A stretch of DNA of 64,000 bases from Streptomyces sp. NBC_01314 (GTDB lineage Bacteria > Actinomycetota > Actinomycetes > Streptomycetales > Streptomycetaceae), in NCBI RefSeq assembly GCF_041435215.1, contig NZ_CP108394.1:7874001-7938000 (forward strand), written 5' to 3'. Below, in pieces: positions 22,946-33,539 of the stretch. The position numbers were made by a program, and so were the translations under genes. Under the pieces are notes generated by a model. It made no database searches and was not told where the DNA came from. It saw only the letters and a list, made by a program, of their open reading frames with translations. Position 1 is the stretch's first letter, and each line of letters starts with the position of its first letter.

Positions 22946-23979
22946 TGACCGCGACCACCAAGACCCCGCCGTCCCAGGACAGCCGTACGGCACCGATGTC
23001 CGCCTCCAAGGTCTCGGCGGTCCTCGCCGACCGGCGCCTGCCCGTCCTGGTGACCGCCACGCTCTTCCTGGCGATGTACATCACGGGCCTGGGCCGCTAC
23101 CAGAACTACGGTTTCGGCGAGCCGCAGGTCTTCCTCAACCTCTTCATCGACAACGGCTACCTGCTGGTGGCCGCCGTCGGCGCGACCTTCGTGATCCTCT
23201 CCGGCGGCATCGACCTCTCCGTCGGCTCGGTCATCGGCTTCACCACGATGTTCACGGCCTGGCTGGTGGAACGCCAGGGCGTGCCGATCCTGCTGGTCAT
23301 CCCCATGGCCCTGGCCGTGGGCGCCTTCGGCGGCTTCCTCATGGGCTATGTGATCCAGAACTTCGAGATCCAGCCCTTCATCGTGACCCTCGCCGGCCTC
23401 TTCCTGTTCCGGGGCCTGTGCCTGGTCATCAGCAAGGAGTCGATCGCCATCGGCGACGCGACGGTGAGCAGCATGGCCCAGGCGCAGGCACAACTGGGCG
23501 TGGGCTTCCTCTCCGTCGGCGCGATCATCGCCCTGGTGGTCCTGGCCGCGGCGTTCTACATCCTCCACTACAGCCGCTTCGGCCGGCGCGTGTACGCCAT
23601 CGGCGGCAACGAGCAGTCCGCACTGCTGATGGGCCTCCCGCAGGGCGGCACCAAGATCGCCGTCTACACCGTGTCCGGCTTCTGCTCGGCACTGGCGGGC
23701 CTGCTCTTCACCCTCTACATCCAGTCCGGCGACCCCCTGCACGCCACCGGCATGGAACTGGACGCGATCGCCGCGGTCGTCATCGGCGGCACGCTGCTGA
23801 CGGGCGGCTCCGGCTACGTACTGGGCACGCTCTTCGGCGTTCTCGTCCTCGGCCTCATCAAGAGCCTCATCCAGTTCGAGGGCACCCTCAGCTCCTGGTG
23901 GACGAAGATCGCCACGGGTGTGCTGCTGTGCGCGTTCATCCTGATCCAGCGGGCGATGACGGCACGGAAGAAGACCTGA
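22945..23979 (+). CDS. yjfF: Sugar ABC transporter permease (YjfF family)
   Basis: The 344-residue second permease pairs with YtfT to form a heterodimeric channel, as in the E. coli galactofuranose importer. It has ILSGGIDLSVGSVIGFTTMF, QPFIVTLAGLFLFRGLCLVI, VYAIGGNEQSALLMGL and VIGGTLLTGGSGYVLGTLFG. GGAGGT lies seven bases before the ATG. It is the last gene of the operon and is followed by a 15-bp hairpin. Confidence 0.9.
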   Translation: MTATTKTPPSQDSRTAPMSASKVSAVLADRRLPVLVTATLFLAMYITGLGRYQNYGFGEPQVFLNLFIDNGYLLVAAVGATFVILSGGIDLSVGSVIGFTTMFTAWLVERQGVPILLVIPMALAVGAFGGFLMGYVIQNFEIQPFIVTLAGLFLFRGLCLVISKESIAIGDATVSSMAQAQAQLGVGFLSVGAIIALVVLAAAFYILHYSRFGRRVYAIGGNEQSALLMGLPQGGTKIAVYTVSGFCSALAGLLFTLYIQSGDPLHATGMELDAIAAVVIGGTLLTGGSGYVLGTLFGVLVLGLIKSLIQFEGTLSSWWTKIATGVLLCAFILIQRAMTARKKT

Positions 23980-24015
23980 CCGGGATGTGACCGGGACCTG
24001 AGTGGGACCTGAGCG

Positions 24016-24050
24016 GAGGGGACGCTCGCCCTTGCGGCGAGCGTCCCCTC
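24016..24050. terminator. Bidirectional terminator, perfect 15-bp stem
   Basis: GAGGGGACGCTCGCC (24016-24030) pairs with GGCGAGCGTCCCCTC (24036-24050) around five bases. It lies between the convergent importer operon and the hydrolase gene (stop at 24053) and can serve both. Confidence 0.88.
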
Positions 24051-24052
24051 TC

Positions 24053-24904
24053 TCAGTTCTCCCGGTCCAGGAACTTCGCGACGGTCTCCACGAACCGGTC
24101 GCCGTCGTCCAGCCACGGATGATGCCCGGCTCCCGGCTGTACGACGAACTCGGCGCCCCCCGGGAACAGCGCGGCGTACTCGCCCATCGCGCTCGGCGGC
24201 GAGTTGAGGTCGACCTCCCCGGCGAGCACGAGCACGGGCGCCCCGAACCGCCGGAACGCGGCCCGCGCACCCTCCGGGTCGAAGGCCCCCTCACTCCCGA
24301 AGACACGCGCCGCCTCGGGGTTGCGCTGCTCGGCGTCGGCGGCGTCGAGGGCCTGGGCGGTTTCGTCCCAACGCCCGTGCAGGAAGGGCGCGACGGCCGC
24401 CCAGTGCCGTTCCGTACCCCGCCCCGCCGCGACCTCCTGCAACGCCGCGAACGCCTCCCCGAACCACGGCTCGCCCTCCCGCAGCCGGGCGACCGCGAGC
24501 CGGTCCTCGCCGCTGACCGGGACACCGACACCGATCGGGCTCGGCGTGACGAGCACGAGCCTGCCGACCCGCTCCGGATACGCCCGCACATACGCCGCCG
24601 CGACATTCGCCCCGGCACAGTGCGCGAGCAGATCGACCCGCTCCGCCCCCAACTCCTTCCGGAGCGCCTCCACATCCCCGACGAGCCGGTCACACCGGTA
24701 GGAGGCGGTGTCCTCCGGAACCGCCGACTCCCCGGTGCCCCGCAGATCCGGCATCACCAGCCGCCGATGCGCGGCCAGCCCTCCGAGCTCACCGAGATAG
24801 GCGGAGGCCCGCATGGGCCCCCCGGGCAGACAGACCAGGGGCGGACCGTCCCCGAACGTGCGGTGGGCGAGGAGGGTGCCGTCGGGTGCGCGAAAGGTGG
24901 GCAT
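24053..24904 (-). CDS. Alpha/beta hydrolase with cysteine at the nucleophile position
   Basis: The 283-residue protein has the proline-iminopeptidase-like alpha/beta-hydrolase layout: VCLPGGPMRASAYLGEL (oxyanion region), VMPDLRGTGES, the nucleophile elbow LLAHCAGANVAAAY, VLVLAGEVDLNSPP (acid) and VQPGAGHHPWLDD (histidine). The elbow normally reads G-x-S-x-G; here it is AHCAG, so cysteine replaces serine. Cysteine works in dienelactone hydrolase, so activity is possible but altered. The ATG at 24904 is chosen from alignment with the family start; the frame continues upstream without support. It is divergent from the four-gene cluster beginning at 25051. Confidence 0.85.
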   Translation of the reverse strand: MPTFRAPDGTLLAHRTFGDGPPLVCLPGGPMRASAYLGELGGLAAHRRLVMPDLRGTGESAVPEDTASYRCDRLVGDVEALRKELGAERVDLLAHCAGANVAAAYVRAYPERVGRLVLVTPSPIGVGVPVSGEDRLAVARLREGEPWFGEAFAALQEVAAGRGTERHWAAVAPFLHGRWDETAQALDAADAEQRNPEAARVFGSEGAFDPEGARAAFRRFGAPVLVLAGEVDLNSPPSAMGEYAALFPGGAEFVVQPGAGHHPWLDDGDRFVETVAKFLDREN

Positions 24905-25050
24905 GGCCCGACTTTCACCGTCCCACCGCGACGGAGCAACCACGATTCGCCACGCTCCCGCCGGTCGGACAAGTACTGTGGCCTGCTGGCAAGTTGCACG
25001 TAAGATGGTTTGTCCGGCATTACCTGGTCGGGTGATTCGCGGGGGTGCGC

Positions 25051-26010
25051 ATGAGGCCGCGTCTGGTGTTCGTGCATGGCGTCGGGGGGCCACGGGATCC
25101 CGACGCCGAATGTGATGTCTGGCTGCGCGCCCTGGCCGAAGGGGCTCGGGCGGCAGGTCATTCGCGTCGCGTTCTGGACCTGGTGCGGGGCTGGGCCGCC
25201 GACGCGCGATTCGCCTACTACGGTGACCTGTTCGGCCTGACGCCACAAGCGCAGGGTGATGTGCCCGACGAGGACGACGAAGAAACCGTCCTCGTCGGAA
25301 GTCTGCTGCGCGAAGCCTTGGACGAGCGTCTGCAGGAACCCCACACGAACGACGAGGGCCGGGTCCTGCGCCACGCGCGGGCCCAACTCACGCAGGACGG
25401 ACCGGCGCAGGGGCCGGGAGCGGCGGCCCGCAAGGTATTGAGCGCGGCCAACACACTGCTGAGCCTGCCCGGGTTGCGTACCTGCGGCGGATGGGCCAGC
25501 GCGGGGTTGATGGTCGGCCACCTCCGTCAGGTGGCCCGCTATCTGCGCCGTGGCGAGGCCGACGAGGAAGGGCTGACGCTCGACGTCCGCGTACGCCGCC
25601 CCGTCGAGCGGGCCCTGGACCCCGTCGGTCCCACGATCGTCATCGCGCACTCGCTGGGCACGGTCGTGTCCACCGAGACGCTGCACGCGCACCGGGGCAC
25701 TGTCCCGCTGCTTGTCACGCTCGGCTCACCGATGGGGCTCCGCTCGGTCGTCGGCGCCCGCATGAGACCGCAGCCCCTACAGGTGCCCCTCTCCGTCGAG
25801 CGATGGCTGGACTACTGGGACCGGGACGATCTCGTCACGGCGGGGACCCGGCTGGAGAAGGCCGTACGGCCCAACGACCGAGCCGTGAGACCTGTCAGCA
25901 GACGCGTGGACTCGGACGGCTTGTCGGTGCACCCCGCCGTCAAGTATCTCGCTCAGCCCGCCGTGGCCGGCCCGGTCGTCGAGGCCATCGAGACGGCCAC
26001 CCACGCATGA
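25051..26010 (+). CDS. Alpha/beta hydrolase, first gene of a predicted conflict system
   Basis: The 319-residue protein opens MRPRLVFVHGVGG, the HG oxyanion motif of lipase/esterase folds. The nucleophile elbow is IVIAHSLGTVV with the serine at about residue 201, followed by LLVTLGSPMG. A long insertion (about 60-170) separates the first strand from the elbow; it is Asp/Glu-rich and helical and may be a lid or a partner-binding part. No secretion signal is seen, so it acts in the cytoplasm, perhaps on lipids or esters as an effector. A GTG six bases upstream (25045) is an alternative start. Its stop overlaps the caspase gene start as ATGA (26007-26010). Confidence 0.8.
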   Translation: MRPRLVFVHGVGGPRDPDAECDVWLRALAEGARAAGHSRRVLDLVRGWAADARFAYYGDLFGLTPQAQGDVPDEDDEETVLVGSLLREALDERLQEPHTNDEGRVLRHARAQLTQDGPAQGPGAAARKVLSAANTLLSLPGLRTCGGWASAGLMVGHLRQVARYLRRGEADEEGLTLDVRVRRPVERALDPVGPTIVIAHSLGTVVSTETLHAHRGTVPLLVTLGSPMGLRSVVGARMRPQPLQVPLSVERWLDYWDRDDLVTAGTRLEKAVRPNDRAVRPVSRRVDSDGLSVHPAVKYLAQPAVAGPVVEAIETATHA

Positions 26011-28085
26011 CCGCTTCGACTCCGCCTCGTCACGCCCTCGTCATCGCCCCGCAGTGCCCGAATCTGGGACCGCTGGACGACCTCGAAGGCGTGGCCCGGT
26101 CACTGCGCGACCTCCTCACCAGCCACTGGAGAGGAGCGTGCTCACGCAGCCCCGCCGCCACGCCATCGCTCCTCTACGGCGACTCCGTCGGCCAGGCGCG
26201 CATCGAGGCGGCGGTCCGAAGCGCGGCGAAGCACGCGGCCCGGGCACAGGCCGTGCTGGTCGTCGCGTTCCTCGGCCACGGGATCACCCCCGGCAAGAAC
26301 CCCACGCTGTACCTCATGGCGGGCGACTCCCGTGCCGACGAGATCGCCACGGCCGTCAATGTCGGCGAGCTCCTGACCCAGGCACTGGAGACACCTGGAC
26401 TTCCCGGTGTGATCGCCCTGGTCGACACCTGCCACGCGGGCGGCGCCACACCCGACCTGAAGTCCCTGGACGCCGGCGTACGACAAGGCGCGACCCGGCT
26501 CTCGTTGCTCATGGGGGTCGGTGCCGCGCAGACGGCCTACCGCCTCGCCTTCTCGCGCGGCGTCGCGGAGGTCTTGAAGGGAGGCCTCGGCGGCGAGGGC
26601 GAGTTCCTGTACCCCACCGCGGTGCTCCAGGCCGTGCGTGACACCGTGCCGGGTCAGGACGCGCGTCTGGTGGAGTACGACGGAGCACAGTTCGGCGACC
26701 GGCCCTGGCTGGCGCGCAACGCCCGCCACCCGATCCACTCCGGGCCCCTGCTCGGACCCGTCGCCTCCGAGGAACTGAGCCTGGCGCTCGCTCCGTTGGG
26801 ATGCTCTTCCCTGTTCCTGACGCCGGTGGCCGACGCAGGGACTCTGGAGCGGCTGCGCGCCGTACTGCCGGACCGCTCGTCGGGCAGCGCCGCCGAGCTG
26901 GCCTGGGCGCTGCGCGTCGTCGACGGTGTCCTGGACGGCCTGCGCACGGTCGAACTGCTCACCACCTCATGGCCCGGCCGCCCGCTGACCTCGGAGCGGC
27001 TGCGCCGCGCGCTGTCGTCGGCCGCCGGCCGGGCCGCCGAACGGCTGCCGGACACCTGGGGACGCGAACTGCTGCGAGACGCCGTGGAGTTGCTGCGCCT
27101 GCGAGCGCCACGTCTGCACGAGACACGCACCACCCCTCTGGCGACCTTCGTCGCCACGCTGGCCGCCGAGGACGCCTTGGCCGAAGATGACGGAGAACTC
27201 GTCTCCTGGGCGGACGCGGTGGGCTCCCGCGTCGAACTGAGCGACGCCTTCGAGGCCCTGCGTGAGCGCGGAAGCACGACGCGACTGCGGCTGATCGTCA
27301 GCCTGCACGCGGCTGTCGCCGACGAGTGGCCCGAGAGCCTCGACGCCTGGCTGCTCGACGGCGGAGAGGTCCACGCGCACGAGGAGTTCGACTGCGTGCC
27401 CGACCAGGACGGCATCGAGCAGCGGCTCGCCGCCGTGCTGCGCTGGGCATCGCTACGGGCACGCGGGATCGGAGTACGGCTGCGGCGGGTGGAGATCGCC
27501 GCCTCCGCCGCCCTCCTCCTGCGCTGGCGCCCCGAGGAGACCGACTTCGGGGAACTGATGGGTGTCGCGTACGACGTCGTACTGCGCTGGAGCGAGCGGC
27601 TGTGCCCGCCGGACCACCTCTGGTGGATCAATGACCGGGCCCGGGTGAAACTGGCGGCGATGAGTGCCTGCGCCGCCGGAACCGCGCCGGTCGACTGGCT
27701 CGGCGAGCCCGAGACCGGAGAGGCACAGGAGCTCAGGAGACTGCTCCGCAACAACACCTATCGCCGCGCCGTCGCCCTGGCCCACCGGCCGCCGCGCTTC
27801 GAGCAGGTGATGGAGGTACTGCTGGCGTATGCCCCGATCGTGCTGTGGCCCTGTGCCGACGACGGTGCGCCCGAGCGCTTCCGGGACACCCTGGACAAGT
27901 TCTGGCATCTGCTCCCCGCCGAGTTCTGCGAGGCATACCGTCACAGCTGGGTACAGCGCCCCCCGACGACCCCCGACGGCCGGGAGCAACTGGCCCGATG
28001 GCGAACCGTGTGGCACGACATCGAGTGGCTCGACTTCTGCGACCGGTTCGAGCAGTTCACTACGGAGGAGGAGAACTCCGCATGA
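26007..28085 (+). CDS. Caspase-like protease with VMAP-C-like C-terminal region
   Basis: The 692-residue protein begins with a caspase/metacaspase fold (about residues 8-240). The catalytic pair is visible: His91 in FLGHGITPG and Cys142 in ALVDTCHAGGA. Strand-forming segments RHALVIAPQC and AQAVLVVAFLGHG fit peptidase family C14. The rest is a long Leu/Arg-rich helical region. Around residues 420-480, LRLIVSLHAAVADEWPESLD and AWLLDGGEVHAHEEFDCVPD resemble the VMAP-C domain found in vWA-MoxR-associated conflict proteins; that assignment is from memory. The context (MoxR ATPase, vWA-like protein) supports it. Substrate proteins are unknown. It overlaps both neighbours by four bases. Confidence 0.85.
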   Translation: MTASTPPRHALVIAPQCPNLGPLDDLEGVARSLRDLLTSHWRGACSRSPAATPSLLYGDSVGQARIEAAVRSAAKHAARAQAVLVVAFLGHGITPGKNPTLYLMAGDSRADEIATAVNVGELLTQALETPGLPGVIALVDTCHAGGATPDLKSLDAGVRQGATRLSLLMGVGAAQTAYRLAFSRGVAEVLKGGLGGEGEFLYPTAVLQAVRDTVPGQDARLVEYDGAQFGDRPWLARNARHPIHSGPLLGPVASEELSLALAPLGCSSLFLTPVADAGTLERLRAVLPDRSSGSAAELAWALRVVDGVLDGLRTVELLTTSWPGRPLTSERLRRALSSAAGRAAERLPDTWGRELLRDAVELLRLRAPRLHETRTTPLATFVATLAAEDALAEDDGELVSWADAVGSRVELSDAFEALRERGSTTRLRLIVSLHAAVADEWPESLDAWLLDGGEVHAHEEFDCVPDQDGIEQRLAAVLRWASLRARGIGVRLRRVEIAASAALLLRWRPEETDFGELMGVAYDVVLRWSERLCPPDHLWWINDRARVKLAAMSACAAGTAPVDWLGEPETGEAQELRRLLRNNTYRRAVALAHRPPRFEQVMEVLLAYAPIVLWPCADDGAPERFRDTLDKFWHLLPAEFCEAYRHSWVQRPPTTPDGREQLARWRTVWHDIEWLDFCDRFEQFTTEEENSA

Positions 28086-29017
28086 CCTGGCAGCCCTTCT
28101 ACGTCGGTGACGGCACGCCCCGCGACGTCGATCTCGGTGAGCCGCCCCCGTGGCGGAGCTTTCCCCGGCAGGCCCTGCACCAGCAGTTCCAACCGCCGCC
28201 CGGCCTTGTCCGGGCCGTCAACGCCGCGTTGCTGCTGCGTCGGCCGCTGTTGGTGACCGGCGCCGCGGGCTCGGGCAAGTCCACCGTGATCGAGCAGGTC
28301 GCCGCGGAGCTCAAGCTCGGCGACGTGTTGCGCTGGCACATCACTTCGCGGAGCACTCTGACGGAGGCGCTCTACCGCTACGACGCCCTCGGCCGCATCC
28401 ACGCCCAGCGGCTCGCCGGCCGCGACGGCGGCGACGACATCGCGCCCTTCCTGCAACTGGGCCCACTGGGGACGGCGCTGCTGCCCGCCGAACACCCGCG
28501 TGCCCTGCTGATCGACGAGATCGACAAGAGTGACCTGGACCTGCCGAGCGACCTGCTCGATGTGCTGGAGCGCGGCGAGTTCGAGGTCCCCGAGCTCGCA
28601 CGGTACGCGAGGGAGATCGTCGACGTACGGGAATGGGGCGGTGACGCCCGTAGTCCGGTGGCGCGCGGACGGGTGCAGTGCGACCAGTTTCCCTTCATCG
28701 TCATGACGAGCAACGGCGAGCGCGACTTCCCACCGGCCTTTCTCCGACGCTGTATCCGGTTCACCATGCCGAAGCCGACCGTCGACGCGCTGCGCGCAAT
28801 CGTCGGGGCCCACCTGCGGATCGGCGTGGATTCCGACGGGGCGCGGGCGGTCGACACGCTCATCGAGACGTTCGTCGGCCGGGTGACAGCGGGCGAGAGC
28901 CTGGCGATCGACCAGCTCCTGAACGCCGTGCATCTGCTGACCGGCGGCGGCGTTTCGCAGGGAGAGGACGACCAGGAAATCATGGAGCTCGTTCTGCGCG
29001 AGTTGTCCCGTGCCTGA
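28082..29017 (+). CDS. MoxR-type AAA+ ATPase of the conflict cluster
   Basis: The 311-residue ATPase has Walker A GAAGSGKST at residues 60-68, Walker B ALLIDEIDKSD at about 141-151, sensor 1 in PFIVMTSNGERDFP, and arginine-finger candidates in FLRRCIRFTMPKP. A helical lid follows (about 230-305). MoxR proteins remodel vWA-domain partners using ATP, and here a vWA-like protein is encoded by the next gene. It most likely provides the NTP-dependent checkpoint that keeps effectors off until triggered. Overlaps: ATGA with the caspase gene and eight bases with the next gene. Confidence 0.9.
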   Translation: MTWQPFYVGDGTPRDVDLGEPPPWRSFPRQALHQQFQPPPGLVRAVNAALLLRRPLLVTGAAGSGKSTVIEQVAAELKLGDVLRWHITSRSTLTEALYRYDALGRIHAQRLAGRDGGDDIAPFLQLGPLGTALLPAEHPRALLIDEIDKSDLDLPSDLLDVLERGEFEVPELARYAREIVDVREWGGDARSPVARGRVQCDQFPFIVMTSNGERDFPPAFLRRCIRFTMPKPTVDALRAIVGAHLRIGVDSDGARAVDTLIETFVGRVTAGESLAIDQLLNAVHLLTGGGVSQGEDDQEIMELVLRELSRA

Positions 29018-31904
29018 ACGGGGCTCCTCGGCGTTGGAGCCTCTCGCCCGGGTGGTGGCGGCGCTCAGCGCCGCCGCGCCGGGGCTGGACGGCACGGCCC
29101 TGGCCGAGGCCCTCTGGCTGGCGTCCCTGATGGACGTGGACAGCGAAGCCGACGGCGGGCCGGCGGGGGACCGCCCCGCCGAGACGACGCCCACCTCCGG
29201 GACGGCGACCGAAGACCTCGAACCACAGCTCGCCGATCCCCTGCACGACCTGCACGAACACCTCGCCGGAGCGCCGGTGACGATCCGGGGCGACGCGGTG
29301 GCACCCGCCCATGCCCCCGGTCTGCCACGGGCTCTGGAGGTGACCCGTGCGCTGCGCCCGTGGAAGCGGCGATGGCCACGGGGGCGCCGATCGGTCCTGG
29401 ACGTCGACGCCACCGTGGACAGCTACGCCCGCAGCGGAGAACTGATCCCGGTGCTCAGCCCCGCGCCCGAGAGATGGTTCGACCTCGTCCTGGTGGTGGA
29501 CCGCTCCCCGGCGATGGGGGTGTGGCGGGAGACCGTCATGGACTTCACCGCCGTACTGGACCGGCTCGGCGCCTTCCGGACCCTCCACCTGCGCGAACTC
29601 CACTTCCGCGACGACGGGTTCGAACTCCGGGACAAGCAGGGCAGGTTGACGGCCCCCCGTCAGCTGAGGTCTCCCGATGGGCGCCGACTGATCGTGGTCG
29701 TGTCCGACTGCGCGGCTCCGGGATGGCGGGACACGGCGGTGTGGCGTCAGCTGCGCGACTGGGCGCTGCTGGCCCCGGTCGCCCTGCTCAATCCACTGCC
29801 GGCGAAACTCTGGCGCAGAACAGGCCTCGACCTGCCCTCGACCAGAGTCACGGCCACCGCACCGGGCTCTCCCAACTCCCGACTGCTCTTCCCATCGCCG
29901 CTGCTGCCCCACGAGAGCGATGACGCCGACGAGGGGGACTGGCTGCCCGTCCCTGTTCTCTCCTTGTCCCCGCACTCCTTGAACCACTGGTCACGCACGT
30001 TGATGCGCGCGGCCCCCGTAGGTGCCGCCGCGGTCCTCGTACCGAGTGGTGGACGGATGGAACGGCGTCCTCGGCAGCGGTCCGGGGGCGTGGCCGCGGA
30101 GGGATTCCTCCGCACGGCCTCGCCCCCGGCGGCGCGCCTGGCGGTGCTGTGCTCCACGTTCGACCGGCTGAGCACGCGCCTGCTCCATCTCATCCGCCAG
30201 GAACTGGTACCCGAAGCCACGGTGGCCGATGTCGCCGAGTTGCTGACCAGCGGGCTTTTCGCACTCAGCCACGACGACAACGGCGTCGTAGTGATGAGTC
30301 CGCCGGACGTCATACAGCGACGGCTGCAGAGGGAACTCGCGGAACACGAGGTTTGGCGCATCAACAGGGCGTTGAGCCGCCATGTGGCCTCCATGGACAG
30401 CTGGGGCGGGCGGTTGCCGGCAGTGGTGTCGAGCTCCGGCGGTCGCGTCGAACTTCCGGCGGCCGGGCAGGCCTTCGGGCAGCTGTCGGGGCGCACGCTG
30501 GAGCTGCTGGGTCTGCCGATAGGCGGTCCGGCCGTGCCCGGCTCCGGGGGAGGGGCGGAGGGGGTGCCGCGGCCGGGCACCTTGCGGCCCCGACTGAGGA
30601 AGGCACCGGCTCCGGCGGACAATCCGCCCTATTTCTTCCTCAGTTACGCCCGCACACCGTCCCTCGGATTGAACAGCGGCGACCCGAACCACTGGGTCCA
30701 GGTGCTCTTCCAAGACCTGTGCGACCACATCATGGCCCTCACGGACCTGCCCGCCGGGGCGAGCGCGGGGTTCATGGACCGGGAGATGCGTTCCGGTGGC
30801 GGCTGGACGGACAAGGTCAGCGAGAATCTCGCCGCGTGCCGGGTGTTCGTACCGTTGTACTCGCCGAGGTACTTCACCGGCGAGATGCAGGGCCGTGAAT
30901 GGTACGCGTTCAACGAGCGCATCGTGCTGGCGAGGAGCACGGGTGCGGGGGACGTGCCCGCCATCGTCCCGGCCCTGTGGGTACATGTCCCCTTCGACCA
31001 GCTTCCCGAGTCCGCACGGGACTTCCAGATCGACACCTCGCTCGGGGACCGCTATCTCACCAGCGGCATCTACGGGCTGATCAAGCTCAACCGCCTCAGG
31101 GACGAGTACGAGGAGGTCGTGTACGGCCTGGCCCGGCGGATCGTGTGGGCCGCAGAGAGGACGCCGCTGCCCCCCGGAGAGCCCCGCGCCTACGAGTCGA
31201 CGCCCAGCGCGTTCAAGCCGCGCGGCGAGGGGCCCCGCAGCATCCACCTGATAGTGGCGGCACCCACCCGGACTTCCGTCCCCGAGAACCGGGACATCCG
31301 TCCGTACGGCGAGGACGCCTGGCACTGGAACCCTTATCACGGCGAGTCCACGCGCCCACTGGTCGGGCTCGTCGAGGAAATGATCCGGTCGCTGGACTAC
31401 CGGGTCAGCGTTTCCGACTTCGACGACACGGACCCTTCCATCGACGTCCTCGCGGAGCACGGCGAGCACGACCCCCGATCCGCGGGCGAGATGGCCTGGT
31501 CCAGCCGTCCCACGATCCTGTTGCTGGACCGGTGGGCGGTCCAGGACTCCGAACGGCGCCGCAGGTTGCAGGCGTTCGACCGGCTCGCCCACCCCTGGGT
31601 CAGTGTGATGGTCCCCTGGAGCCGCTTCGACCCGCAGTGCCAGGCGCAAGAGGGTCTGAAGCGAAAGGCCGAACTGGAACGGGTTCTGCCGAACCTCTTG
31701 GCTCGGGGACGAAATACCGACCTGCACACGGCTGCCGACGGCGTCCCCACCTTGAAAGCCTTCACCGACGTACTGCCCCTCGTCGTGGCGACCGCCACCC
31801 AGCAGTTCCTCAGGCACGCTTCGGTCGCCGTGCCGCGGTCCCCCCGGTTGCCGAGGCTGATGCCGGAGAGAGCGGACTCCGGGTCCTTGGAGGACGAGGT
31901 CTGA
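29010..31904 (+). CDS. SAV_2336/vWA-like N-terminus fused to an FxsC-type TIR-like domain
   Basis: This 964-residue protein has at least three parts. Residues 8-45 (LARVVAALSAAAPGLDGTALAEALW) resemble the SAV_2336 N-terminal unit. Residues about 145-270 look like a vWA fold (WFDLVLVVDRSPAMGVW), with a degenerate metal site DRSPA instead of DxSxS. A helical winged segment covers about 370-480. From about 538, PYFFLSYARTP begins a TIR-like domain that matches the FxsC family, with SENLAACRVFVPLYSPRYF and the acidic motif GREWYAF near 626. A second conserved half starts near 742 (SIHLIVAAPTRTS). FxsC normally accompanies FxSxx-COOH peptides and their radical-SAM enzyme; neither is seen here. The GTG start overlaps the MoxR gene by eight bases. 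Confidence 0.85.
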   Translation: MPERGSSALEPLARVVAALSAAAPGLDGTALAEALWLASLMDVDSEADGGPAGDRPAETTPTSGTATEDLEPQLADPLHDLHEHLAGAPVTIRGDAVAPAHAPGLPRALEVTRALRPWKRRWPRGRRSVLDVDATVDSYARSGELIPVLSPAPERWFDLVLVVDRSPAMGVWRETVMDFTAVLDRLGAFRTLHLRELHFRDDGFELRDKQGRLTAPRQLRSPDGRRLIVVVSDCAAPGWRDTAVWRQLRDWALLAPVALLNPLPAKLWRRTGLDLPSTRVTATAPGSPNSRLLFPSPLLPHESDDADEGDWLPVPVLSLSPHSLNHWSRTLMRAAPVGAAAVLVPSGGRMERRPRQRSGGVAAEGFLRTASPPAARLAVLCSTFDRLSTRLLHLIRQELVPEATVADVAELLTSGLFALSHDDNGVVVMSPPDVIQRRLQRELAEHEVWRINRALSRHVASMDSWGGRLPAVVSSSGGRVELPAAGQAFGQLSGRTLELLGLPIGGPAVPGSGGGAEGVPRPGTLRPRLRKAPAPADNPPYFFLSYARTPSLGLNSGDPNHWVQVLFQDLCDHIMALTDLPAGASAGFMDREMRSGGGWTDKVSENLAACRVFVPLYSPRYFTGEMQGREWYAFNERIVLARSTGAGDVPAIVPALWVHVPFDQLPESARDFQIDTSLGDRYLTSGIYGLIKLNRLRDEYEEVVYGLARRIVWAAERTPLPPGEPRAYESTPSAFKPRGEGPRSIHLIVAAPTRTSVPENRDIRPYGEDAWHWNPYHGESTRPLVGLVEEMIRSLDYRVSVSDFDDTDPSIDVLAEHGEHDPRSAGEMAWSSRPTILLLDRWAVQDSERRRRLQAFDRLAHPWVSVMVPWSRFDPQCQAQEGLKRKAELERVLPNLLARGRNTDLHTAADGVPTLKAFTDVLPLVVATATQQFLRHASVAVPRSPRLPRLMPERADSGSLEDEV

Positions 31905-31916
31905 CTGCCCGCCTTT

Positions 31917-32354
31917 CTACGCCCCCACCATCCGCAGCAGCAGATCCCGCAACGCCTCCCGTTCGGCGGTGCTCAGCCCCGCCAGTGGCTCCCGGGCGAA
32001 GTCCAGCGAGTTCCGGAGGCTGCCGGCCACCCGGCGGCCTTCGGGCGTGGCCGCCGCCAGCTTCACGCGGCGGTCGTTCGGGTCGGAGCGGCGTTCCACC
32101 AGACCCCGTGCCTCCAGGCGGTCCACGATCCCCGTGACGTTCGAGGGTTCGCAGCGGAGTTTCTGGGCGAGGCGGCGCATGGGGAGCGGTTGCAGGGAAA
32201 GGAGACCGAGGAGGCGGGCCTGGGCGCCGGTGAGCGTGTGCTCGGCGGCGGCGTCCTCGTACTCCTCGTGGTAGCGGGCCACCACCGTGCCGATGAGCTC
32301 GACGACCTCCATGGTCAGCGGGTCGATGCGGGGGGCCGTCTTCTGCGTGGGCAT
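31917..32354 (-). CDS. MarR-family transcriptional regulator
   Basis: The 145-residue protein has the MarR winged helix at about 45-115: LTGAQARLLGLLSLQPLPMR, RLAQKLRCEPSNVTGIVDRL and the wing GLVERRSDPNDRRVKLAAAT. N- and C-terminal helices form the dimer interface. It is divergent from an NADP-dependent oxidoreductase gene, the usual arrangement for a MarR repressor that senses the small molecule its neighbour detoxifies. Its stop lies 12 bases from the end of the convergent conflict-cluster gene. Confidence 0.9.
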   Translation of the reverse strand: MPTQKTAPRIDPLTMEVVELIGTVVARYHEEYEDAAAEHTLTGAQARLLGLLSLQPLPMRRLAQKLRCEPSNVTGIVDRLEARGLVERRSDPNDRRVKLAAATPEGRRVAGSLRNSLDFAREPLAGLSTAEREALRDLLLRMVGA

Positions 32355-32375
32355 GGGTCCGAGGCTACCCCTTTA

Positions 32376-32398
32376 CTTGACAACATGAAATATTCAAG
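32376..32398. promoter_or_regulatory. MarR operator candidate between divergent genes
   Basis: CTTGA (32376-32380) and TCAAG (32394-32398) form an inverted repeat spanning an AT-rich core, in the only AT-rich stretch between the regulator and the oxidoreductase. It overlaps where promoters for both should lie. Confidence 0.5.
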
Positions 32399-32516
32399 CG
32401 CATGGTTGTTTCAGACACTGAAGTAACCGCACGGTATGCAACAGTGCAAGCAGCACCGCAAGAGCCGTCCCCCGCACCACCGCTCGCAGCACGCACCCGC
32501 AGGAAGGCCCACCCCC

Positions 32517-33539
32517 ATGTCCGACACCCCCGCCCTCCCCGCCACCAGCCGTGAATGGCACCTGCTGAGCCGCCCCGTCGGCTGGCCCAAGGACGAGGAC
32601 TTCGCCCTGGTCGAGGCGGAGATCCGGCAGCCCGGCGCGGGTGAGGTCCTCGTACGGAACAAGTTCCTCTCCGTGGACCCGTACATGCGCGGCCGCATGA
32701 GCGACGCGAAGTCGTACGTCGCCCCGTTCGAGCTGGGCAAGGTCATGCAGGGCGGTGCCGTGGGCGAGGTCGTCGCCTCGGCGGCCGAGGGCATCGCCGT
32801 CGGCGACCACGTGCTGCACTTCGGCGGCTGGCGCGAGTACGCCACGTTCGACGCCAAGCAGGCCGTGAAGGTCGACGCGGACGCCGCGCCGCTCTCCACC
32901 TACCTCGGCGTCCTCGGCATGACCGGCCTCACCGCCTACGCGGGTCTGCTGCGGGTCGGCGCCTTCAAGGAGGGCGACGCCGTGTTCGTCTCCGGCGCCG
33001 CCGGTGCCGTCGGCAGCCAGGTCGGCCAGATCGCCAAGCTCAAGGGCGCCTCGCGCGTCATCGGCTCCGCCGGCTCCGACGACAAGGTCAAGATCCTCGT
33101 CGAGGAGTACGGCTTCGACGCCGCCTTCAACTACAAGAACGGCCCGGTCTGGGAGCAGCTCAAGCAGGCCGCCCCCGACGGCATCGACGTCTACTTCGAC
33201 AACGTCGGCGGCGAGCACCTGGAGGCCGCGATCGGCGCGCTCAACCTGCGGGGCCGGGCCGTGATCTGCGGAATGATCTCCCAGTACAACTCGACCGAGC
33301 CGACCCTGGGCCCGCGCAACATGGTCAAGATCCTGCAGAACCGCCTCCGCGTCGAGGGCGTCCTCGTCGGCGACCACTACGACTTCCAGTCCCAGTTCGT
33401 CCAGGAGGTCGGCCCCTGGGTCGCCTCCGGCGAGCTCAAGTACCGCGAGACCGTCGTCGAGGGCATCGACAACAACCTGGAGGCCTTCCTCGGCGTCCTG
33501 CGCGGCGACAACACGGGCAAGATGATCGTCAAGCTCTGA
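32517..33539 (+). CDS. NADP-dependent oxidoreductase (leukotriene B4 12-hydroxydehydrogenase/curcumin reductase type)
   Basis: The 340-residue MDR enzyme lacks zinc ligands. It has the family markers VDPYMRGRM, VMQGGAVGEVVAS, TGLTAYAGLL, VSGAAGAVGSQVGQIAKLKG (NADPH-binding loop) and DVYFDNVGGEHLEAAI. Such enzymes reduce alpha,beta-unsaturated ketones and aldehydes in the cytoplasm. AGGAAGG precedes the ATG at 32517. Expression is probably controlled by the divergent MarR protein. The gene ends at a strong hairpin. Confidence 0.9.
   Translation: MSDTPALPATSREWHLLSRPVGWPKDEDFALVEAEIRQPGAGEVLVRNKFLSVDPYMRGRMSDAKSYVAPFELGKVMQGGAVGEVVASAAEGIAVGDHVLHFGGWREYATFDAKQAVKVDADAAPLSTYLGVLGMTGLTAYAGLLRVGAFKEGDAVFVSGAAGAVGSQVGQIAKLKGASRVIGSAGSDDKVKILVEEYGFDAAFNYKNGPVWEQLKQAAPDGIDVYFDNVGGEHLEAAIGALNLRGRAVICGMISQYNSTEPTLGPRNMVKILQNRLRVEGVLVGDHYDFQSQFVQEVGPWVASGELKYRETVVEGIDNNLEAFLGVLRGDNTGKMIVKL

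Follow-up and report, generated by a model that had tools for sequence, protein, structure and literature searches.

The VMAP-ternary systems are a predicted class of conflict systems, and as far as our search of the literature reached, we found no experimental tests of them. In the available part of the paper that describes them (Kaur et al. 2020, PMC7159879), they are concentrated in multicellular bacteria and are defined by a strict VMAP-MoxR-vWA gene order. An alpha/beta-hydrolase gene always adjoins a VMAP gene of the caspase type, and TIR domains, traced to the TIRs of AP-ATPase fusions, are listed among the tails of the vWA proteins. Here we analyze a four-gene cluster in a 64,000-nucleotide stretch of the genome of Streptomyces sp. 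NBC_01314 (contig NZ_CP108394.1, positions 7,874,001 to 7,938,000), referred to below as the window. Judged by its sequence, the cluster is a VMAP-ternary conflict system of the caspase and alpha/beta-hydrolase branch, with an FxsC (TIR) tail on its vWA protein.

The cluster has the gene content of a VMAP-ternary system

A first-pass annotation of the window had proposed four overlapping open reading frames (ORFs), and direct reading confirmed their coordinates and their ATGA, ATGA, and 8-base junctions (Table 1). The whole cluster spans less than 7 kb. The annotation had also filed the genes under vWA-MoxR-associated conflict systems, as a combination not previously known. The filing holds. 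The locus shares with the published class (PMC7159879, available part) the gene order, VMAP-M2, VMAP-C (in co-linear homologs), one MoxR N-terminal motif, the MIDAS aspartates, the adjacent hydrolase, and a TIR on the vWA protein. In public entries, "vWA-MoxR associated conflict system protein" is already a common name for homologs of the VMAP gene, as is "TIR-like protein FxsC" for those of gene 4. The claim of novelty falls, since the pairing of a caspase VMAP with a hydrolase, the gene order, and a vWA-borne TIR all appear in that paper. The difference lies in the tail: that of the window is akin to free-standing FxsC, which is named 0 times in the main text as available.

Table 1. Features of the cluster and its surroundings (window coordinates)
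Feature	Position	Strand	Remarks
alpha/beta-Hydrolase	25051..26010	+	319 amino acids; ORF read directly
VMAP protein	26007..28085	+	692 amino acids; ATGA overlap with hydrolase gene
MoxR-type AAA+ ATPase	28082..29017	+	311 amino acids; ATGA overlap with VMAP gene
vWA (SAV_2336 type) + FxsC protein	29010..31904	+	964 amino acids; GTG start; 8-base overlap with MoxR gene; based on NF041121, NF040588, TIGR04276, and model
TIR domain (residues 539-717)	30624..31160	+	catalytic-type Glu630; Gln627 replaces usual Cys
FxsC C-terminal domain (residues 740-937)	31227..31820	+	TIGR04276, 4.8e-43; alpha/beta by secondary-structure prediction
Segment absent at equivalent site of relative G007	23980..31928		blastn synteny; 78 other bases there (L114 13303-13380)

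Searches with hidden Markov models of conflict-system families brought VMAP-M2, SAV_2336_NTERM, FxsC_Nterm, and FxsC_Cterm over their cutoffs. The VMAP protein consists of a caspase domain (residues ~3 to 237), VMAP-M2 (PF19965; E value, 5.6e-55; 186.8 bits versus a cutoff of 27.7), and a VMAP-C-like end. Its first domain has the peptidase C14 fold with a His/Cys dyad, His91 and Cys142, at the positions named in the first-pass annotation; the caspase model NF047832 matched at 1.7e-12, under its curated cutoff. Cys142 is found in 52 of 52 VMAPs, and His91 is missing in one. VMAP-C (PF20028) gave no match in the window protein at E values up to 1 and exceeded its cutoff in three of six scanned co-linear homologs (P0199, P0212, and P0215), which is indirect evidence for the window. 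The hydrolase had no Pfam match above threshold (best, 0.028). Its likely catalytic residues are Ser201 (in HSLG) and His294, with Asp257 or Asp260 as the acid; these four and His9 are invariant in 29/29 aligned sequences. A lack of conservation of the catalytic residues, which would have refuted the first-pass reading, was not observed.

The MoxR protein contains a Walker A motif (GAAGSGKST) and a Walker B motif (LLIDEIDK). It matched general AAA families in Pfam, AAA_5 alone being over its cutoff among the matches listed, and MadB far under the cutoff (4e-16). The N-terminal motif PsWRxa is present as PPWRSF (P22, P23, W24, and R25 in 27/27 sequences), and WQPFYVG exceeds the printed form WxhapG by one residue (W3, Y7, and G9 in 27/27). 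In the vWA-FxsC protein, SAV_2336_NTERM (1.2e-97), FxsC_Nterm (2.4e-63), and FxsC_Cterm (4.8e-43) all matched over cutoff, and the MIDAS aspartates D164 and D233 are present in 48/48 sequences. For its N terminus, the model predicts a helical extension together with a disordered linker. The motif [D/E]xxx[D/E]xxxa, given in the available text of Kaur et al. (PMC7159879) as distinctive of this extension and not as a condition of membership, is found literally in only 3 of 48 rows when their first 140 residues are searched; the single match in the window, at residue 76, falls in the linker. This was a regular-expression search with F, W, Y, or H as the aromatic residue and the motif taken from the text of that paper, not from its alignment. 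A duplicate locus, L049, was dropped from all alignments, and L052 and L050 were also dropped from that of the vWA proteins.

A linker predicted to be disordered (residues ~477 to 536) leads from vWA to the FxsC tail. The tail has the TIR fold with a glutamate, Glu630, which we take to be of the catalytic type from the C-x-x-E spacing of known TIRs, not from superposition. Glu630 is kept in 104/104 fused and 120/120 free-standing FxsC copies. SPARTA (TIR-APAZ/short Ago) and the TIR NADases SARM1 and AbTir share the fold and a glutamate at this position (again by spacing), with 11 to 21% identity in the compared rows; their trigger differs, and NADase activity in the window protein is putative. 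An hhalign comparison of the FxsC C-terminal domain with the TIR half was negative.

Gene order is conserved in related loci

Homologs in relatives proved to be linked, against the refuting case of genes that are always apart. Our comparison set, obtained by tblastn, comprised 30 loci of the same type (29 distinct; L049 repeats L002), and the order of the window recurs in it apart from L052, L066, L067, L006, L004, and L050. With the duplicate counted, MoxR comes next after VMAP in 27 loci and vWA next after MoxR in 26. The hydrolase gene, at identities down to 41%, lies beside VMAP in 29/30 loci, the exception being L006, a locus that begins inside the VMAP gene. Overlaps of 4 bases join hydrolase and VMAP in 24 of 28 and VMAP and MoxR in 23 of 25 distinct loci measured, and MoxR and vWA overlap by 8 bases in 16 of 25 and by 20 bases in 5 more; starts were picked close to where the window would place them, which is a mild bias. 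L004 stops after MoxR, and in L050 the vWA match is divided over two frames.

In L052 (G208:C76:129000-145000), VMAP-M2 and an FxsC-type vWA protein occur with no MoxR match at an E value of 1e-3, only ~160 bases separating the VMAP and vWA matches; this is either a natural loss of MoxR or a decayed system. L066 (8826-11155) and L067 (8543-10884) have a two-gene form in which the hydrolase is accompanied by a caspase protein that carries a partial VMAP-M2 and TPR repeats; no MoxR or vWA match was found within the fetched 16 kb. Such loci suggest that the checkpoint is not required for the hydrolase and caspase to act.

The FxsC tail appears to be an exchangeable cassette

In FxSxx-COOH radical-SAM peptide loci with FxsC (TIGR04269, NF040586, NF040588, and TIGR04276), FxsC is free-standing, whereas in the window it is fused to vWA. 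Free-standing rows were taken from the best 120 of 903 matches and fused rows from the best 120 of 152; class counts leave out homologs with <300 matched residues and the 15 of class "other." In a tree of 111 of 250 homologs plus the window, fused and free-standing copies intermix, a pattern that allows swaps in either direction. Natural relatives also exist with nearly the same vWA frame and a different FxsC tail. By these comparisons, the vWA-borne tail seems to have been swapped repeatedly with free-standing FxsC genes, a kinship for which we found no description in the literature reached by our search.

Fused copies had longer branches than free-standing ones in 9/9 mixed clades (from the midpoint-rooted quick tree, three with support of <60) and in 52/52 nearest-neighbor comparisons, against 35/47 in a free-versus-free control; seven rows, either long or duplicate, had been excluded beforehand. 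Because the control is skewed and the sampling favors slow free-standing rows, faster change of the fused copies is only suggestive. Columns at least 97% conserved in free-standing FxsC were kept in fused copies at a median of 95%.

Elsewhere in the same genome, FxsC has a match to the FxsB maturase no more than 2.2 kb away in 5/5 places (two share one locus). No FxsB was found beside the window FxsC, the nearest strong match being ~75 kb from the cluster. An FxSxx radical-SAM peptide locus ~75 kb before the cluster (L069 1104-9539) holds FxsB, FxsC, an FxSxx TPR protein, and an ORF resembling AAC(3) acetyltransferases, with scores below the cutoffs of that model; it possibly represents a resident donor type for such tails. 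A divergent FxsC of this genome (L071 5566-6903) has a weak match, under the cutoff, to ThcB4 of Thoeris type III (5e-6).

The system is patchily distributed

Of 295 sampled Streptomyces genomes, 25 had VMAP-M2 above its cutoff, a count that includes the genome of the window and two partial matches; in a phylum-wide sample of 396 genomes the number was 2, the genome of the window and one congener. Relatives of the VMAP gene occur in eleven plasmid records, all from Streptomyces, and in none of the phage records searched. In relative G007 the flanking genes are adjacent, the matches to window positions 23979 and 31929 lying only 78 bases apart. The DNA flanking the cluster in the window has no blastn similarity in any of the 30 other loci, within the fetched stretches (some end at contig ends). 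The patchy spread, the empty site, and the unrelated flanks suggest that the whole system is transferred together between strains and sits at varied sites.

Proposed mechanism and alternatives

We propose, with a probability of roughly 0.55, that the locus encodes an effector cascade with an exchangeable FxsC tail. By analogy with the class, a MoxR ring and the vWA protein would keep the caspase-VMAP protein inactive in a complex, from which an infection signal and ATP hydrolysis would release it. The caspase would then cut its targets, probably including the vWA-FxsC linker, and the freed TIR domain would use up NAD+ or produce a signal derived from NAD; the hydrolase would serve as an additional effector or as a partner. 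The four genes are read as an operon probably serving suicidal defense, in keeping with the role in phage defense or programmed death that the first-pass annotation had put forward. Since the glutamate has been kept through repeated swapping, the tail is probably a live enzyme.

Several points weigh against this cascade. The window copy lacks both Cys627 and Ser624 beside Glu630, so that its TIR may be weak; among 224 copies, Gln at 627 is unique to it. Retention of Glu630 could serve the fold rather than catalysis. Three of the 30 loci (L052, L066, and L067) are without MoxR. The FxsC tree was built quickly, under one model, and has several long branches. PADLOC returned only weak ATPase matches for the MoxR gene, the best at 6e-4, and nothing for the remaining genes. 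Finally, the opposite flow has been proposed, with the vWA tail as antigen sensor and the VMAP peptidase as effector (Dore et al. 2024, PMC10907252, available in part). The systems of that paper, diversified by diversity-generating retroelements, have the VMAP-MoxR-vWA core and a variable vWA tail in common with the window; theirs combine a trypsin-type VMAP peptidase with C-type-lectin tails varied by reverse transcriptase, whereas the window has a caspase and whole-module tail swapping.

Applied here, reverse flow would make the tail a bait or sensor, an integrated decoy modeled on the FxsC of the cell itself, and attack on it by an invader would lead MoxR to turn on the caspase and hydrolase as killers. 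Exchange with free-standing genes and the longer fused branches are in line with this reading, which we regard as possible, with the odds well against it: the rate result carries the biases given above, and a bait need not keep Glu630. Retention of Glu630 and of the conserved columns in fused copies is more readily explained by an active effector than by a decoy. A more specific form, in which the tail is re-copied from the cell's own FxsC as in plant immune receptors with integrated decoys, attack on FxsC trips the caspase checkpoint, and each swap resets the guarded target, seems doubtful to us. The concentration of the class in multicellular bacteria (PMC7159879, available part) and the FxSxx kinship, which points toward peptide pathways, could instead indicate that mycelial bacteria use the system not for defense but as a housekeeping or developmental switch, for programmed death in differentiation or as a peptide-processing chaperone; presence in so few genomes of the genus, the empty site, the unrelated flanks, and the interchangeable tails make this quite unlikely. 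Chance grouping of unrelated genes, for which we found no supporting point, is refuted by an order that recurs in related loci with mostly the same overlaps.

We judge the locus to be an ordinary, well-preserved member of a predicted defense class. The role of the vWA tail, as effector or as sensor, on which the available parts of PMC7159879 and PMC10907252 disagree, is directly testable in Streptomyces because the locus is compact, has three mutable active sites, and has natural tail-swapped relatives.

Neighboring genes

A MarR regulator gene divergent from a zinc-type oxidoreductase gene (31920-33536) lies directly 3' of the cluster. This pair is conserved in relatives that lack the cluster here and does not belong to the system. 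On its other side the cluster is bordered by a transporter permease gene, and the site flanked by this gene and the pair is a possible insertion hot spot: its contents differ in two relatives, with 78 bases in G007 and ~2.2 kb of other DNA (L109 3205-5366), with ORFs that look GntR-like by eye, in G013.
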